Shown one piece after another: positions 4,420-13,618 of a stretch of 50,508 bases of DNA. The stretch covers positions 4,907 to 55,414 of the forward strand of contig NVUM01000004.1 of assembly GCA_002733125.1 (NCBI GenBank), in the 5' to 3' direction. Both the position numbers and the translations under genes were made by a program. Numbering within the stretch: the first letter of the stretch is position 1; the number at the start of each line of letters is the position of its first letter. Below the pieces are notes generated by a model. That model ran no database searches. It was not told the DNA's origin and saw only the letters and a program-made list of their open reading frames with translations. The DNA is from Porticoccus sp. (GTDB lineage: Bacteria; Pseudomonadota; Gammaproteobacteria; Pseudomonadales; Porticoccaceae).

Positions 4420-5528
4420 TGAGTGGAGAATTATCACCCATGGCCAAGGGATTGCTGACTGCTGCTGCCTTCGTGGTGGTGGTTGCCGGCCTCAAGGCGG
4501 CAGAAACCGTGTTGGTGCCGTTTCTGTTGTCGGTATTCATTGCACTGATTTTTTCGCCGCTGCTGGCCTGGCTCAAAGCGTGCCGGGTGCCCAATGTGGT
4601 GGCCATCTGCCTGATCATTGCCCTGGTGGTACTGATTGGCTGGCTGATTGGTATTCTGGTGGGTTCGTCCATCAATGACTTCCGAAAAAATCTGCCAGCC
4701 TACCAGGCGGGGCTGCAACAGCTGAGCGGTGGAGTTCTGACCTGGCTGGGGGAGCACGGGGTCAAGCTGGACATGGAACAGATGCGCAACAGTTTTGATC
4801 CCGGCAAGGTCATGCAGTTGGCTGGCAACACCCTGAGCTCGCTCGGCAATGCCATGACCAATGCCTTCCTTATCCTGCTGACCGTGATCTTTATCCTCGC
4901 GGAACAGGTGGGCTTCAGTGAAAAATTGCAGTTGGCCAGAAAGGACAATGGTGCCAGTCGTGACACCATGCAAAAGTTTACCGACAGCGTTAACAGCTAT
5001 CTGGGCATCAAATCGCTGTTGAGCCTGCTCACCGGGGTACTGGTGATGATCTGGTTGTGGATTCTCGGTCTGGATTACCCGGTGATGTGGGGGTTGTTGG
5101 CGTTTCTGCTCAACTTTGTACCGAATATCGGCTCCATTATCGCGGCGGTGCCACCGGTGCTGCTGGCACTGGTTCAACTGAATCCGCTGTTTGCGGGACT
5201 CACTGCCCTCGGCTTTCTCGTGGTGAATGTGCTGGTGGGCAATTTTCTCGAGCCGAGAATCATGGGCCGGGGGCTCAATCTGTCGCCCCTGGTGGTATTT
5301 CTTTCATTGGTCTTCTGGGGTTGGGTGCTTGGCCCGGTCGGTATGTTGCTGTCCATTCCGCTGACCATCATGGTCAAGATTGCCCTGGAAAATGACCCCG
5401 ATACCTACTGGATGGGCGTGATGCTCGGTTCCGGCGAGGGTGCCCCGGTATTGACGAAAGCAGAAGAGCAGCTATCGAAGGAAGCAGATAACAAGGTATC
5501 GACGGACGCGGAAGACAAGCAGCACTGA
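4416..5528 (+). CDS. AI-2E/PerM family transporter
   Basis: This 370-residue protein has about eight membrane segments in the arrangement of the AI-2 exporter (TqsA/PerM, UPF0118) family. Recognisable stretches are ETVLVPFLLSVFIALIFSPL near the N-terminus, YLGIKSLLSLLTGV in the middle and LNFVPNIGSIIAA followed by EPRIMGRGLNLSPLVVFLSL. The C-terminus is hydrophilic. Family members include an autoinducer-2 exporter and Na+-linked permeases; the substrate here cannot be inferred. The ATG at 4416 overlaps the previous TGA and has GGGGGAG just upstream; ATG 4419 is an equally possible start. Confidence 0.88.
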   Translation: MMSGELSPMAKGLLTAAAFVVVVAGLKAAETVLVPFLLSVFIALIFSPLLAWLKACRVPNVVAICLIIALVVLIGWLIGILVGSSINDFRKNLPAYQAGLQQLSGGVLTWLGEHGVKLDMEQMRNSFDPGKVMQLAGNTLSSLGNAMTNAFLILLTVIFILAEQVGFSEKLQLARKDNGASRDTMQKFTDSVNSYLGIKSLLSLLTGVLVMIWLWILGLDYPVMWGLLAFLLNFVPNIGSIIAAVPPVLLALVQLNPLFAGLTALGFLVVNVLVGNFLEPRIMGRGLNLSPLVVFLSLVFWGWVLGPVGMLLSIPLTIMVKIALENDPDTYWMGVMLGSGEGAPVLTKAEEQLSKEADNKVSTDAEDKQH

Positions 5529-6241: not shown

Positions 6242-6315
6242 TGCCCGGCGGATTTGATTGTGCAGCTTCTCGATCTGTCTCAGGGGATCGACAGGCTCAC
6301 CGACAGGAGTGATTC

Positions 6316-7497
6316 ATGACAAGCATTGGTACACCGCTCACAACCCATGCCACCCGGGTGATGTTTCTCGGCAGTGGTGAACTCGGCAAGGAGGTGGCGA
6401 TAGAGTTGATGCGCTACGGTTGCGAGGTGATTGCGGTGGATCGCTACGCCAATGCGCCGGCCATGCAGGTGGCCCATCGCAGTCATGTGATCAATATGCT
6501 GGACGGGGAGGCACTGCGCTGGCTGGTGGAGAACGAAAAGCCGCATCTGATCGTGCCGGAAATCGAGGCGATTGCCACGGCCGAGCTGGTGGCGCTCGAA
6601 CAGGAGGGCTGGCAGGTGGTGCCCTCGGCGAGAGCGGTCCACCTCACCATGAACCGCGAAGGCATTCGCCGACTTGCCGCCGAAGAACTGAAACTGGCTA
6701 CCTCGCCCTATCGTTTTGCTGAAACCAGGGCTGAATATGATGCGGCTATCAGGGCGGTAGGGCTGCCCTGCGTGGTCAAACCGATCATGTCTTCTTCAGG
6801 CAAGGGCCAGAGTACCGTCAAAACCGAAAACCAGATCGATGCCGCCTGGGAATACGCCCAATCCGGTGGTCGCAGCGGTCAGGGCAAGGTGATTGTCGAG
6901 GGGTTTGTGGACTTTGATGATGAGATCACGCTGCTCACAGTGCGTCATCGGGATGGTACAAGTTTCTGTGCCCCCATCGGCCATCGTCAGGAAAAAGGCG
7001 ATTATCGCGAGTCCTGGCAGCCCCAGTTTATGGATGCCGCTGTCCTTGAGGAGGCGCAGCGGGTTGCCGCCGCCGTCACCGGCGCTCTGGGTGGCTATGG
7101 CCTGTTTGGGGTAGAACTGTTTATCAAGGGCAATGCCGTCTATTTCAGTGAGGTGTCGCCGCGGCCCCACGATACCGGTCTGGTGACACTGATGTCCCAG
7201 AATCTGTCCGAGTTCGCCATGCACGCCAGGGCCATTCTCGGCTTGCCGATTCCGGTGATCCACCAGCTTGGACCCTGTGCTTCCGCTGTGCTATTGGTGA
7301 CGGGCGAGTCCAGCGACATGCGTTACGGCAACCTGTCTGCAGCGCTGGCCGAGCCGGACACGGAACTGCGCCTGTTCGGTAAACCGGCGGTTCGTGGTGA
7401 ACGACGCCTCGGGGTTGCATTGTCCCGGGATAGCAGCACTGAAGCGGCTGTCGCCAAGGCGCTGCGGGTTATTGGGCAGATCGAGGTAACCCTGTAG
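6316..7497 (+). CDS. purT: Formate-dependent phosphoribosylglycinamide formyltransferase 2
   Basis: This 393-residue ATP-grasp enzyme makes formyl-GAR from GAR, formate and ATP in purine synthesis. The N-terminal nucleotide-fold loop [14 protein letters not shown] is at about 17-30. The ATP-grasp core contains [17 protein letters not shown] and the metal-binding [11 protein letters not shown]. The length matches PurT (about 392). ACAGGAG precedes the ATG. No PurR-like palindrome was recognised in the 74-base upstream gap. Confidence 0.97.
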
Positions 7498-7591
7498 TGA
7501 ATATTACACAAATCAGCGGTTGGGCCTGCCTCTGGCAAACCCGGTTTGTTGTGTTTGTTCGATCCATCAACTGTCGATCCGGAGTATCCCT

Positions 7592-9493
7592 GTGAGTGGC
7601 GTAAACAGCGATCAGTTAATCGTCTTTGCGGTGCTGGCCGCTACCTTGGGTATGTTTGTCTGGAATCGCTGGCGCTACGATATCGTCGCACTGATGGCCC
7701 TGCTGGTGGTGGCGCTGGTGGACATCGTGCCGCCTGATCAGGTCTTTATGGGGCTCGGCCACCCCGCAGTGATTACGGTGGCGGCGGTGCTGGTGTTGAG
7801 TCGCGGGCTGCTCAACGCCGGGGTGGTGGACACCCTGTCCAAGCACCTCATGCGTGCGGGCAATGCGCCCTGGATCCAGGTGGCGGTGTTGACCGGTATC
7901 GTGGCCATCTGCTCCGGTTTTATGAACAATGTCGGTGCGCTGGCGCTGTTTATGCCAGTGGCGGTGTGGATGTCCCGCCAGAGCGGCTTTTCACCCTCCC
8001 TGCTGCTGATGCCATTGGCGTTTGGCTCGCTGCTCGGCGGCATGCTGACCATGATCGGCACCCCGCCCAATATCATCATTGCGTCCTATCGGGCAGAGGC
8101 CGGTGGCATACCTTTTGGCATGTTTGATTTTATGCCAGTGGGGGCGATGGTGACACTGGTTGGGGTCGCCTTTATCGCACTGGTCGGCTGGCGATTAACG
8201 CCCCGGCGTGAAGATCAGGATGACTCGGAATCGTTGTTTGAAATCAGCGCCTATCTGACGGAACTGCGTATTCCGGAGGGCTGCAAATACGCAGGGCAAA
8301 CCCTTCATGACCTGTTGTCCGTCATACAGGACGACTCCGATGTGATGGTAGTGGGCTTGTTCCGCGATGAGCAGCGCCAGGAAATGCCGTCCATTTACAA
8401 GGTGCTGCGGGAGCAGGATATTTTGCTGGTGGAGGCGGACTCGGAAAGCCTCAAGTCACTGATTGACGAGACCGGCCTCGAATTGGCAGAGGGGAGCAGC
8501 AAAGAGGAGAATTTGGCAGATTCATCTAAAGATGAAGATGATGAATTGCAGGTTTCTGTAGAACATGCGCAGGTCGACCGGAACAGCGATGCCGCTGCCG
8601 AAGAAAATACCGATGAGAAATCAAAGGTAAAACCGGGCAAGCTGACACTGGTGGAGGCCATTGTCACACCCGGTTCGGTACTGCTGGGAACAACCGCCAC
8701 CGGGGTTGATTTACGCAAGCGCTTTAGCGTGAATGTGCTCGCTGTAGCCCGGCAGGGCCATCGGTTGCGGCAACGTATTGGCAAAATCCGCTTTGTGGCG
8801 GGGGACATACTGCTGTTGCAGGTTCAGGAAGAGAATATGTCGGCGGCCCTTTCAAGTCTGGGTTGTCTGCCGCTGGCTTCCCGGGGTCTGGAGATAGGCC
8901 GGCCTCGCAAGGTTTTTCTGGCCATTGCAATTTTTGCCATGTCGTTGGTGGTGATAGCCTTGAATCTGGTATCCGCGGCCACTGCGCTGGTGGGCGGTGC
9001 ATTGGTGATGGTGCTGGTGAATCTGGTGCCGCCGGGTGAAATCTACAAAAGTATCGATATGCCGGTAATTGTGTTGCTGGCAGCCATGCTGCCGGTTGGC
9101 AATGCTCTGGAAACCACCGGCGGCTCCCAGTTGATTGCCGACGGTTTATTGAACATTGCCGGCGCTGTGCCGCCGATGGCGACCCTGGCGATACTGATGA
9201 CAGCGGTCATGCTGCTGTCCAATGTGGTCAACAATGCCGCCGCTGCGATTCTGGCTGCACCGGTAGCGATTAACCTTGCTCAGGGTATGCAGGTCTCGGC
9301 GGATCCCTTGCTGATGGCAGTGGCGATTGGTGCCTCCAGCGCCTTTCTGACACCCATCGGACATCAATCCAATACCCTGGTGATGGAGCCGGGTGGTTAT
9401 CAGTTCAGTGACTACTGGCGAATGGGCCTGCCCTTATCCATACTGATTGTTGCCTGTGCCACGCCCATGATCCTCTGGGTCTGGCCACTGTAA
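7592..9493 (+). CDS. SLC13 family carrier with two RCK (TrkA-C) domains
   Basis: This 633-residue membrane protein has an N-terminal block of membrane helices with SGFMNNVGALALFMP and IGTPPNIIIASY. A cytoplasmic middle of two TrkA-C-like domains follows (around ISAYLTELRIPEGCKYAGQTL and TPGSVLLGTTATGVDLRKRF), then a second membrane block with SNVVNNAAAAILAAP and SSAFLTPIGHQSNTLV. This is the DASS/SLC13 layout with regulatory RCK domains; substrates in the family include dicarboxylates, sulfate and other anions. The GTG at 7592 is chosen because GGAG lies 7 bases before it and the upstream in-frame extension from 7520 is not membrane-like. A strongly acidic, low-complexity stretch of about 60 residues separates the two RCK domains. 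Confidence 0.88.
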   Translation: MSGVNSDQLIVFAVLAATLGMFVWNRWRYDIVALMALLVVALVDIVPPDQVFMGLGHPAVITVAAVLVLSRGLLNAGVVDTLSKHLMRAGNAPWIQVAVLTGIVAICSGFMNNVGALALFMPVAVWMSRQSGFSPSLLLMPLAFGSLLGGMLTMIGTPPNIIIASYRAEAGGIPFGMFDFMPVGAMVTLVGVAFIALVGWRLTPRREDQDDSESLFEISAYLTELRIPEGCKYAGQTLHDLLSVIQDDSDVMVVGLFRDEQRQEMPSIYKVLREQDILLVEADSESLKSLIDETGLELAEGSSKEENLADSSKDEDDELQVSVEHAQVDRNSDAAAEENTDEKSKVKPGKLTLVEAIVTPGSVLLGTTATGVDLRKRFSVNVLAVARQGHRLRQRIGKIRFVAGDILLLQVQEENMSAALSSLGCLPLASRGLEIGRPRKVFLAIAIFAMSLVVIALNLVSAATALVGGALVMVLVNLVPPGEIYKSIDMPVIVLLAAMLPVGNALETTGGSQLIADGLLNIAGAVPPMATLAILMTAVMLLSNVVNNAAAAILAAPVAINLAQGMQVSADPLLMAVAIGASSAFLTPIGHQSNTLVMEPGGYQFSDYWRMGLPLSILIVACATPMILWVWPL

Positions 9494-9511
9494 AACAAGG
9501 ACAGGAATATC

Positions 9512-9877
9512 ATGGCGCTTACCGAGATTATTTCCCTGGCGGGATACGCCATCGAAGCTGCCGGTGTGTTGGTGGTGATGATCGGCTCTGTTCTCTCCAC
9601 CATCAATTTCCTGCGGGGTTATCGACATCAGTCGGAGGGCATTGCTTACCGGGTGTATCGCAGGCAGCTGGGGCGTTCGATTATCCTGGGGTTGGAGTTC
9701 CTGATTGCCGGGGACATCATTCGCACCGTGATTGTAGAAACGTCACTGGAGAATGTCGCTGTGCTCGGCCTGATTATTCTGATCCGAACCTTCCTCAGCC
9801 TGACCCTGCACCTTGAAATAGAGGGCCGGTGGCCCTGGCAGCCGGAGGATAAGGGATCCGCACAGAAGGCCAGTTAA
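9512..9877 (+). CDS. DUF1622 family membrane protein
   Basis: This 121-residue protein has three predicted membrane segments and a positively charged loop (RVYRRQLGRSIILGLEFLIAGDIIRT). That pattern fits the DUF1622 family, whose function is unknown. It follows the SLC13 gene by 18 bases with AGGACAGGA upstream, so it is probably co-transcribed with it. The C-terminus EIEGRWPWQ is typical of the family. Confidence 0.82.
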   Translation: MALTEIISLAGYAIEAAGVLVVMIGSVLSTINFLRGYRHQSEGIAYRVYRRQLGRSIILGLEFLIAGDIIRTVIVETSLENVAVLGLIILIRTFLSLTLHLEIEGRWPWQPEDKGSAQKAS

Positions 9878-9889
9878 ACAAAATCTTGT

Positions 9890-10010
9890 TGAGTCATTGA
9901 TCGTTCGGATGGAGGTTGATAAATCCTGTCAGGAAGAATTGTTCGGTCTCAGCTGAACGCAACAGGCCGGTGAATGCCTGGCGTATTCCTCACGGGTGCT
10001 CATCAAAGGG
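9890..10010 (-). pseudogene. Decayed duplicate of the 3' end of selO
   Basis: This 121-base stretch is a direct repeat of the C-terminal end of the intact selO gene plus about 40 bases beyond its stop. Bases 9902-9938 match 11137-11173 at 35 of 37 positions. Bases 9967-9991 match 11202-11226 at 24 of 25. Bases 9993-10007 match 11233-11247 exactly. The first two blocks keep a constant offset of 1235; a 5-base deletion before the third shifts it to 1240 and breaks the frame. Read on the minus strand the copy encodes FDEHP, then after the frameshift EEYARH, and a stop at the same place as selO. Homology fades above about 10020. The mscS gene lies between the two copies. Confidence 0.88.
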
Positions 10011-10108
10011 CATTTTATGCGTCCTATACTTCTTGCCCTCATCTGTGTCAGCCTCGGATGGTGACCGCTCTGGCCGATATTCTTGCATATTTTCGTTTCA
10101 AGAAAGGA

Positions 10109-11002
10109 TTATGAATCGGCGGCTTGGGACTCATTTTTTTTCGGAGGCCTGACAAGCCGTACCTGGCCGTCGATATGTACATCACGTTGCGGAAATGCAA
10201 TAACAATGTTGTTGGCCTCGAAAAGCTCGGTAATCCGGAAACGAATATTCGAGCGTAGTGTTCTAAGATCCGTATCTCCGAAGCTGTCAATCCAGACATA
10301 GACATCAAATATCAGCGCGCTGTCTCCGAAGTCTTCAAAAATGACTATCGGAGCCTTTTCTTCCGACAGCACTTCCGGTTCCCCAACGGCGGCCTGCATG
10401 ATCAGATCGGCAACTTTCCTGACCGGCGAACCATAAGCGACACCGACAGTGATAGTGGTCCTCACCATGCGATCAACCAGTGTCCAGTTGACCACCATGT
10501 TTTCCAGTAACTGGCTGTTGGGAATAAGGAGATGAACGCCGTCTATGCGGCGGATTCTGGTGGAACGTGTATTGATGGTATCTACACTACCTCTGACATC
10601 ACCGATCTCGAGGAAATCCCCGATCCGGATCGGCTTCTCCCACATCAGTATCCAGCCGGAAATGAAATTGTTGATGATATTCTGGGCACCGAAGCCGACA
10701 CCGATTGCAATGGCGCCTGAAACAAAGGCGAAGGCTGCCAGGGGAATACCGAGAATACCCAGCCCTGTGATAATGACGATAGTCAGGATCACTATGAAAT
10801 AGAGACGCTGGATCAACAGGGCGACATCAGCGTTGAAGTTTCTGGCGTTCAGGGTCTTGTTCAGCAGGTGACTCGATTTCTTGATGAAAAGATAGATCAG
10901 CCACAGTACGAGAGGAATAAGAAAAAGGTGGGCGAGCGTTATTGCCTGGTCGCTGATCTGAAAAAGCTGATAGGTGAAAATATCCTGAAATGTCTCCATC
11001 AC
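10109..11002 (-). CDS. Mechanosensitive ion channel of the MscS family
   Basis: This 297-residue protein has three membrane segments followed by the MscS beta domain and C-terminal alpha/beta domain. The pore helix region AIAIGVGFGAQNIINNFISG and the following MWEKPIRIGDFLEI are the family hallmarks. The protein gates on membrane tension and releases solutes on hypo-osmotic shock. The start is ATG at 11002 or the adjacent ATG at 10999. The gene is flanked on both sides by selO 3'-end sequence, intact on one side and decayed on the other. Confidence 0.93.
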   Translation of the reverse strand: MMETFQDIFTYQLFQISDQAITLAHLFLIPLVLWLIYLFIKKSSHLLNKTLNARNFNADVALLIQRLYFIVILTIVIITGLGILGIPLAAFAFVSGAIAIGVGFGAQNIINNFISGWILMWEKPIRIGDFLEIGDVRGSVDTINTRSTRIRRIDGVHLLIPNSQLLENMVVNWTLVDRMVRTTITVGVAYGSPVRKVADLIMQAAVGEPEVLSEEKAPIVIFEDFGDSALIFDVYVWIDSFGDTDLRTLRSNIRFRITELFEANNIVIAFPQRDVHIDGQVRLVRPPKKNESQAADS

Positions 11003-11163
11003 TGCGATTCACCCATCGATATACTCTGCTTTTTCATACATCTCATCCTGTATTGTTTTTATCTTTCCACATTGTAGATCATGTCAATACTCTGGCTCAC
11101 GCTGCTTTTGCCTTCAAGTTTGAGTCTGTCATCGAACGTTCGGATGGTGGTTGATAAATTCTG

Positions 11164-12636
11164 TCAGGAAGAACAGCTCACACTCAGCTGTTGGCTCCAG
11201 ACCGGTGGATGCCTGGCGTATTCCTCGCAGTCCGGGTGCTCATCAAAAGGTGTTTGCAGCAGCTTGAGCAATCGGTCAATTTCACGATAATCCCCGTCAT
11301 CCTCGGCCTTGCGAATGGCGATTTCTGCCATGTAGTTGCGCAGAACATACTTCGGATTGGTTTTCAGCATGGCCTGATGGCGCTCCGCCGCTGAAATCTG
11401 TTCAGCTTCCCTGGCGAGTCGCTGGCGATAGCGTTCAGCCCAGCCATCAAAAGCTGCGCGATCCAGAAACAGGTCACGCAGCGGGTCATTGGTACCTTTC
11501 TCATGAAAGTCGCAGAGTTTGCGAAAGAAAATAGTGTAGTCGACATTGCTGGCTGCCATGGCCGCCAGCAGATCATCGATGAGTGACTGATCATCCCTCT
11601 CTGCCGTGACCAGACCGAGCTTTTGCCGGTGGAGCTGCAACAGGCTATCAAAAAACAGCGGCTCGTATTCTTCCAGTACTGTGGTCAGTGCTTCCACGCT
11701 GAGCAGGCTGGTCAGTGCATTGGCCAGGGCCTTGCAGTTCCAAAGGCCGATAATGGGCTGGCGCTTGAAGGCATAGCGTCCGCCATGATCGGAATGGTTG
11801 CAGATAAAGTCCGGGTTGTAGCCGTCGAGAAAGCCGAACGGGCCGTAATCGAGGGTGTCGCCAATAATCGACATGTTATCGGTATTCATCACGCCGTGGG
11901 CAAAGCCCACTGCCTGCCACTGGGCAATCAGCTGCGCTGTGCTGTGAACGGCGTGACGGAACATGGTCAGATAGCGATCGTCACGGGCCGTCAGTTCCGG
12001 CAGGTGTTGTTCGATCACATGGTCAGCCAGAATCTGCACCTGCCGGGTTTCACCCCGATGGTGGAAATATTCAAAGGAGCCGAAGCGGACATGACTGCGG
12101 GCCAGCCGGATCAGCATGGCGGCCTGCTCGGTGGTTTCGCGATAGACCGGTTCGTTGCTGGCGGCGATGCTCAGTGCCCGGGTGGTGGCAATGCCCAGCC
12201 CATGCAGATTCTCACTGCACAGGTATTCACGGATGGAGGAGCGCAGTACCGCGCGACCATCGCCGAAGCGGGAATAGGGTGTCTGTCCGGCCCCTTTGAG
12301 GTGGACGTCCCATTTGCCCTGTGGTCCATCCACTTCACCCAGTAACAGTCCGCGCCCGTCGCCCAATCGGGGCACGTAGGAACCAAATTGGTGACCGCTG
12401 TAGACCATCGCCCGGGGGGTGCTGCCCGGCAGGGTGAGGTTGCCGCTGCACCACTGCAAAAACCAGTCCTGTTGCAATTCTGCGGTATCGATACCCAACA
12501 GTTCGGCGGCGTCCTCGTTGACGCTGACCAGCCAGGGGTTTTCAATGCCACTGGGTATGACCGAAGTGGAGAAGTCCCCACCCAATGTGGCAAAACTGTT
12601 CTTGAAGTGCAGTGTACTGATAATCTGGTCATCCAT
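11164..12636 (-). CDS. selO: Protein adenylyltransferase SelO (YdiU)
   Basis: This 490-residue pseudokinase-fold enzyme transfers AMP from ATP to protein Ser/Thr/Tyr residues, including redox proteins, in characterised relatives. The conserved blocks are YSGHQFGSYVPRLGDGRGLLL, LKGAGQTPYSRFGDGRAVLR, the catalytic stretch HGVMNTDNMSIIGDTLDYGPFGFLD (Asp-Asn pair in NTDN, metal Asp in DYGPFGF) and the C-terminal SCSS tail. The length is normal. It is divergent from the cyclic-nucleotide-binding gene. Its 3' end is repeated at 9890-10010. Confidence 0.96.
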   Translation of the reverse strand: MDDQIISTLHFKNSFATLGGDFSTSVIPSGIENPWLVSVNEDAAELLGIDTAELQQDWFLQWCSGNLTLPGSTPRAMVYSGHQFGSYVPRLGDGRGLLLGEVDGPQGKWDVHLKGAGQTPYSRFGDGRAVLRSSIREYLCSENLHGLGIATTRALSIAASNEPVYRETTEQAAMLIRLARSHVRFGSFEYFHHRGETRQVQILADHVIEQHLPELTARDDRYLTMFRHAVHSTAQLIAQWQAVGFAHGVMNTDNMSIIGDTLDYGPFGFLDGYNPDFICNHSDHGGRYAFKRQPIIGLWNCKALANALTSLLSVEALTTVLEEYEPLFFDSLLQLHRQKLGLVTAERDDQSLIDDLLAAMAASNVDYTIFFRKLCDFHEKGTNDPLRDLFLDRAAFDGWAERYRQRLAREAEQISAAERHQAMLKTNPKYVLRNYMAEIAIRKAEDDGDYREIDRLLKLLQTPFDEHPDCEEYARHPPVWSQQLSVSCSS

Positions 12637-12849
12637 TGAGGGTTAAAACGTGTCCTGGCAAATGACAGGGCAGGTTTTGCGACCGCTGCTTGTATGGTGT
12701 TTTCGTTGCCGGTTTGTCCCGGTTACTGTAACAGCTGTCTTCCGGTTGTATCACCCCGGTGCCCTGTTCCTGCGTTAAATACGCTTAAAAACTGGCTATC
12801 CGCCGCAAGGGGTATGATAATTTGCCCAGCAACCAGGGGAGCTCTATTG

Positions 12850-13512
12850 ATGCCTACCAACCCGGCATTGGAACTGACAGCGGAAGAGCTGGAAAAAAAG
12901 GTCGCTTCACTGCATTTTTTCAAGGAAGTTGGCCGCCACGATCCGCAGCAGCTGCAGATACTGATTCAGCAGTCCCATCTCTATTCGGTAGCACCCGGTG
13001 AGACCTTTCTTAAGGCCGGCGAACAGGGCAGCTGGATGTATTTCCTGATGCGGGGGAAATTGCTGGTGTGCGACCCGCTCGATCACAGCAAAGTGATTGG
13101 GGTTTTGATTCCGGGGGACGTGTTTGGTGAAATTGCCGTGATTACCGGCCATAAAAGAACACAGGATATTGTCGCTCCGGGGCTGATTCGTGAAGCTGTT
13201 GTGTTCGCCACGGACTTTGCCTGTCTGCATGCCAAACCTGAGCACAATCCGTTGACGTTGCCGACCAAACTGATTGTCTATCGGCAGATTGTACATATCC
13301 TCCGCTGGCGCATAGAACTCTATCGCACCCGGTTTCCCGATCACCCAATGGTGCGGGTACCGTTCAACCTGATTCACCGTTCTCCCGCAGGCGATACAGA
13401 AGAGGAGTTGCAGGAACAGCGGGACTACGCCCTGTTTCTGGCTGACCGTCTGCAGCAGCTCAATACAAAACTCGGGCCGATCAACAATGATGTCGGAGAT
13501 GTTGTAAGTTGA
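12850..13512 (+). CDS. Cyclic-nucleotide-binding (Crp-like effector) domain protein
   Basis: This 220-residue protein carries one cNMP-binding beta-roll. The signature region is PGDVFGEIAVITGHKRTQDIVA (about residues 89-110), which corresponds to the phosphate-binding cassette with FGE and a following Arg. No helix-turn-helix or enzymatic domain follows; the C-terminal third is a charged helical region. It may be a stand-alone sensor or protein-interaction module; ligand binding is not assured. The ATG at 12850, with AGGGGAG upstream, is chosen over a long hydrophobic extension starting at 12694 that lies in the divergent promoter region. Confidence 0.75.
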   Translation: MPTNPALELTAEELEKKVASLHFFKEVGRHDPQQLQILIQQSHLYSVAPGETFLKAGEQGSWMYFLMRGKLLVCDPLDHSKVIGVLIPGDVFGEIAVITGHKRTQDIVAPGLIREAVVFATDFACLHAKPEHNPLTLPTKLIVYRQIVHILRWRIELYRTRFPDHPMVRVPFNLIHRSPAGDTEEELQEQRDYALFLADRLQQLNTKLGPINNDVGDVVS

Positions 13513-13618
13513 AGGTCTTCGCGATTCGCGTTTCATCCTTTTATTGGCTCGGCTACCATGGCCGCTGCGGTGCAGAATGGTCTGCGTGCGAGCTGTGGTG
13601 CTCTGTGGGAGAACATAA

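Follow-up and report, generated by a model that had tools for sequence, protein, structure and literature searches.

Capture of an mscS gene on a DNA fragment of about 1.1 kb has probably taken place at the 3' end of selO, with about 125 bp of the target duplicated, the end of selO kept, and the other copy of that end left to decay. The locus lies in a 50.5-kb stretch of Porticoccus sp. DNA, the whole of which we refer to as the window. We found it in two forms among close relatives: a filled site, where mscS has a copy of the selO 3' end on either side, and an empty site with a single copy.

The sequence-only reading of this stretch had placed a decayed copy of the selO end beyond mscS, in the same orientation and at a constant offset of 1235 bases up to a 5-base deletion. 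That description was borne out. The direct repeat joins 9893-9991 with 11128-11226, 99 nt at 83% identity with an offset of 1235, and it resumes past the 5-base deletion in the left copy (9993-10015 and 11233-11255, offset 1240); BLASTN joined both blocks as 123 columns at 80%. We call the left copy A and the right copy B. Copy B covers the final 29-30 codons of selO together with 36 nt past its stop. The positions of all features are collected in Table 1.

Table 1. Features of the selO-mscS locus (positions in the window)
Feature	Position	Strand	Remarks
DUF1622 gene	9512..9877	+	PF07784; native neighbour, across the insert from selO; adjoins selO in the four empty-site genomes
Copy A, decayed selO 3' end and about 36 nt past the stop	9893..10015	-	5-base deletion; possible start at 9889, where TTGAGTC is in common with 11120-11126
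Insert, about 1.1 kb	10016..11127	none	Missing from four close relatives
Left end of insert	10017..10108	+	Hydrophobic N-terminus (15 codons, 10017-10064), then in-frame stop; shared with G002
mscS, MscS-family mechanosensitive channel gene, 297 aa	10109..11002	-	PF00924 and PF21082
Copy B, functional selO 3' end and 36 nt past the stop	11128..11255	-	
selO, protein adenylyltransferase SelO, 490 aa, intact	11164..12636	-	PF02696, above cut-off

The two copies agree at 82 of 99 positions, while the next best places in the window reach 44. Dinucleotide shuffles of the left copy (n=300) gave a maximum of 51 and a mean of 44.4 matches, so that chance similarity could be rejected and the earlier comparison with shuffled sequence comes out far above chance. 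An interspersed repeat was rejected as well, since the two selO-tail copies are the only strong places for this sequence in the window's own genome. The window holds just two families of direct repeats of at least 45 nt, the selO repeat being the longer. The possibility that the short copy is part of an RNA found no backing: no Rfam family matched between 9500 and 12800 up to E=1, and its reading as a repeat stands. No terminator-like sites were seen in 9800-11300, and the promoter count in the same interval did not rise above that of shuffled sequence. The same repeat structure recurs in another assembly (G002:C123), which makes an artefact of assembly unlikely.

A search with SelO matched 54 of 58 genomes, the window's own included, and 18 neighbourhoods were then fetched. 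Six genomes, again counting our own, have a common neighbourhood of purT, a transporter gene, DUF1622, selO and a CRP-like gene (the G002 contig ends within purT). Two of the six sites are filled, those of the window's genome and of G002, whose MscS proteins are 97% identical. In the other four genomes (G011, G009, G015 and G005) the DUF1622 gene adjoins selO, the repeat is present once, and mscS is missing. When the sites were aligned, the sequence flanking copy A matched the empty sites on the DUF1622 side and that flanking copy B matched them on the selO side. Because the flanks of both copies each match those of the empty sites, we read the filled site as an insertion with duplication of its target.

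The sequence-only reading had offered two histories, the insertion of mscS with flanking sequence and a tandem duplication of selO-mscS followed by loss of most of one selO; the comparison of close relatives that it called for supports the former and speaks against the latter, as four of the six genomes lack mscS here and none has a second selO unit at this place. A tandem array that lost one mscS and most of one selO is very unlikely. The copies are indeed co-oriented, and the order of selO end, mscS and selO end would fit a partly deleted array. However, among the genomes examined none showed selO-mscS lacking the duplication, nor a second unit there, and selO was absent within up to 4 kb on either side of mscS relatives in genome_contigs (the 80 best-matching of at least 252 loci). 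Moreover, copy A is contiguous with native DUF1622-side sequence, as copy B is with native selO-side sequence, and removal of the second mscS would have had to be precise.

Elsewhere in the genus, selO adjoins a methyltransferase gene (for example in G016, G010 and G006), and in G012 and G013 a transporter-like ORF lies between the two. With neighbours of selO so varied in the genus, this interval evidently changes easily. In one further neighbourhood (L047 4508-4603, G008:C90), roughly 32 terminal codons are all that is left of selO, next to the methyltransferase gene; this is another lineage with the tail only.

Copy B is intact and copy A has decayed. The 5-base deletion in copy A is common to both filled genomes. 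Between the window and G002, copy A differs at 14 of 82 once-coding sites and copy B at none of 87. The SelO tail SVSCSS was found in both B copies and in all six relatives translated, while in copy A the corresponding tail is NNSS (window) or SRSS (G002), the terminal SCSS motif having been lost. At one place copy B has Val where both A copies and six relatives have Ala; copy A is therefore not derived from the present-day copy B.

The two copies differ at 19 of 117 positions in the window and at 14 of 117 in G002, and copy B differs from the single copy of G009 at 13 of 122 positions and from that of G011 at 14 of 122. As the divergence between A and B resembles that between B and the relatives, either the event is old by the measure of these genomes, or a sister lineage supplied one of the copies. 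Copy B is identical between the window and G002 over 122 nt, fewer changes than a dS of about 0.1 predicts. In addition, copy A of the window has a one-base gap and the letters GATAA in common with copy B, both of which copy A of G002 lacks. Recent exchange or gene conversion would explain both the identity of copy B and the features common to A and B in the window. A tree of the short repeat, in which none of four inner branches was well supported, was set aside.

The divergence between A and B, as deep as that among the six genomes, would also fit a filled state ancestral to all six, from which four genomes lost mscS by recombination between the direct copies, restoring a clean single-copy site. 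Such loss would leave no scar, and in a recombining region an empty allele could spread as well. Yet this history requires either several losses or the spread of the empty allele, and it still needs the original insertion with duplication, just at an earlier date; we consider it unlikely. The direction of change is nevertheless not firmly polarised between gain and loss, because the region is a recombination mosaic. Identities across the neighbourhood form a patchwork in which 250-column blocks are 100% identical between differing pairs of genomes, so that recombination must be frequent here. The mosaicism is strong when 6300-13600 of the window is compared with G002, G011, G009, G015 and G005; some blocks of G002 are 100% identical to G009, others to G015 or G005.

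We return to capture of mscS at selO as the preferred history and ask what was captured. The MscS protein has two domains above cut-off, the MscS beta domain (PF00924, 79 bits) and the C-terminal domain (PF21082, 51.3 bits), and scores below the NCBIfam cut-offs of all six models that it matched. Between the window and G002, dN is 0.012-0.014 and dS 0.10-0.13, giving a dN/dS of 0.09-0.14; mscS is under purifying selection. The dS of selO, 0.10-0.12, is near that of mscS. For the cell, the most likely effect of the capture is one predicted MscS-type channel added. The left end of the insert possibly represents a remnant of a second captured gene, to judge from its reading frame, for which the loci compared gave only weak matches beyond the two carriers.

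To judge from its patchy occurrence and its identity of at most 63% to the other relatives found, mscS looks acquired. At E<=1e-60, relatives of mscS occur in 8 of 112 genomes of the family, the two carriers included, and the best identity besides these is 63%; the closest among the best 80 of at least 252 relatives in genome_contigs is likewise 63% identical. We built a protein tree of 48 rows (the window protein, named relatives and the best-matching loci of 91, with rows ended at the first internal stop). In this tree the carriers, whose branch is long, group with unclassified gammaproteobacterial and pseudomonadal bins, at a support of 93/84, which is below 95, and apart from their genus-mates G010 and G013. 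Composition lends weak support to a foreign origin: the G+C content is 0.492 in mscS, 0.571 in selO, 0.542 in the window, and 0.47 and 0.39 in the flanks of the insert, but in GC3 mscS (0.587) does not fall below its CRP-like neighbour (0.575).

Since no donor was found among the family genomes, genome_contigs, plasmid records or, by insert DNA, the genomes of the order, the case for horizontal origin is indirect. A plasmid donor was rejected, as just 3 of 72,556 records matched, at 51-53% identity. When insert DNA was searched against 390 genomes of the order at 1e-20, 15 matched, the own genome included, and the other 14 did so within the coding part of mscS only. A viral origin was rejected too, with no confirmed relative in viral_contigs (close-relative patterns) and no PHROGs family.

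Could the fragment have been a small element that integrated site-specifically at the selO 3' end, the repeats being its attachment sites? The arrangement has something of this, because the target gene is completed by one repeat while the other has been moved away from it, as happens when elements enter tRNA genes, and a true case of the tRNA type is present in G007 (see below). We regard this as highly improbable, however: the insert has neither an integrase nor another long ORF beside mscS, mscS has no viral relative, and the own genome holds no further copy of the repeat. Nor was a transposase ORF seen in the insert, where mscS is the sole plausible gene. Seven inverted pairs were found, none with arms at 10016 and 11127, and the duplication, about 123-128 bp long, exceeds typical transposon target duplications.

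The capture of mscS may thus be pictured as follows. A DNA fragment of about 1.1 kb with an mscS-type gene would have entered the lineage of the window's genome and G002, we infer by horizontal transfer, and have been joined at the selO 3' end by illegitimate recombination of the incoming DNA, perhaps guided at one end by homology or microhomology; fill-in of a widely staggered break would be an alternative. The joining would have duplicated about 125 bp of the target, comprising the terminal ~30 codons of selO with ~36 nt past its stop, leaving selO with a complete end on the mscS side and the other copy free to decay. Homologous recombination in the flanks may later have carried the insert from one sister species to another. 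The motif TTGAGTC, common to the native flank (9889-9895) and the right end of the insert (11120-11126), may be a microhomology, but four extra bases separate it from the repeat in copy B. Ku was found in none of 17 genomes of the genus, which makes Ku-dependent end joining unlikely. ComEC is present in 13 of the 17, and DprA in the own genome; because these families also match in 10 and 11, respectively, of 14 control genomes, E. coli included, their presence says little about competence.

Insertion with long target duplication has been described in Helicobacter pylori, frequently for restriction-modification genes, and is credited in the papers cited to Nobusato et al. 2000, Gene 259:99-108 (PMC1643837, PMC3031569, PMC4978471, PMC3154945). 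In the cited description, a gene of one genome lies between long direct copies of a sequence that is single in a related genome (PMC1643837). Our locus matches this pattern with a different cargo: the gene is absent at the orthologous site, the repeat is single where the site is empty, and the duplication is long. Restriction-modification cargo, in these accounts a frequent association that does not strictly define the process, is replaced here by an MscS-family channel gene in a pseudomonad-type gammaproteobacterium, and, unlike in the H. pylori descriptions cited, one copy has decayed. The locus thereby offers a clear example, with filled and empty sites, an intact and a decayed copy and two assemblies, of a gene gained with no mobile element visible, and one whose cargo is other than a restriction-modification gene.

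Other systems resemble parts of this history. Homology-facilitated illegitimate recombination, in which one end of the foreign DNA is joined by homology and the other illegitimately (PMC3240628), is a candidate for the joining of the mscS insert; duplication is not its hallmark as stated in that source, and a homologous anchor would here be hypothetical. In Streptococcus pneumoniae, DNA that is taken up can leave a tandem duplication of the target, but the duplications described are about 100-900 kb long and require a repeat (PMC3784515), as against about 125 bp around an insert. Transposed genes of Arabidopsis are likewise reported to be bracketed by direct repeats whose sequence is present at the empty orthologous site, though in a plant and by movement within a genome (PMC2869330). 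In a full-text search of the literature for selO together with mscS, the matches listed were all unrelated by title.

It is tempting, though doubtful, to regard insertion with long target duplication as a general, element-free means of capturing ordinary genes, and not just selfish restriction-modification systems, at gene ends, the decaying spare copies marking and dating each capture. Under such a route the target gene would stay unbroken, its end being restored by the stretch that is duplicated. The footprint consists of a long direct copy of the end of a gene on the other side of an accessory gene; gene-level annotation misses it, and it could be counted over many genomes. We scanned 335,947 bases (the window and 18 stretches from relatives) and, in the own genome, 394,797 bases that include overlaps and the surroundings of the window, partly the same sequence; this sample, in which no second clear case of insertion with target duplication appeared, does not show a general process.

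The scan did return other repeats. In the own genome, two repeat pairs lie within single ORFs. A 188-bp direct repeat of 84% identity (L195 10799-10985 and 11536-11720, G000:C18) surrounds an ORF that looks RadC-like by eye, and a similar stretch occurs in G005. In L048 (G007:C5), an 85% direct repeat (4762-4847 and 11134-11222), one copy of which overlaps a tRNA-Phe gene, encloses about 6.4 kb; with an ORF that by eye is integrase-like beside a selO-family gene, this interval resembles an ordinary integrative element. In L032 (711-1225 and 2664-3017, G011:C2), pieces of a REP-type transposase-like ORF are repeated next to an HsdS-like ORF, both so judged by eye. The remaining direct repeats, at 66-76% identity (L036 12488-15046 and L047 1269-3098), may be tandem paralogues.
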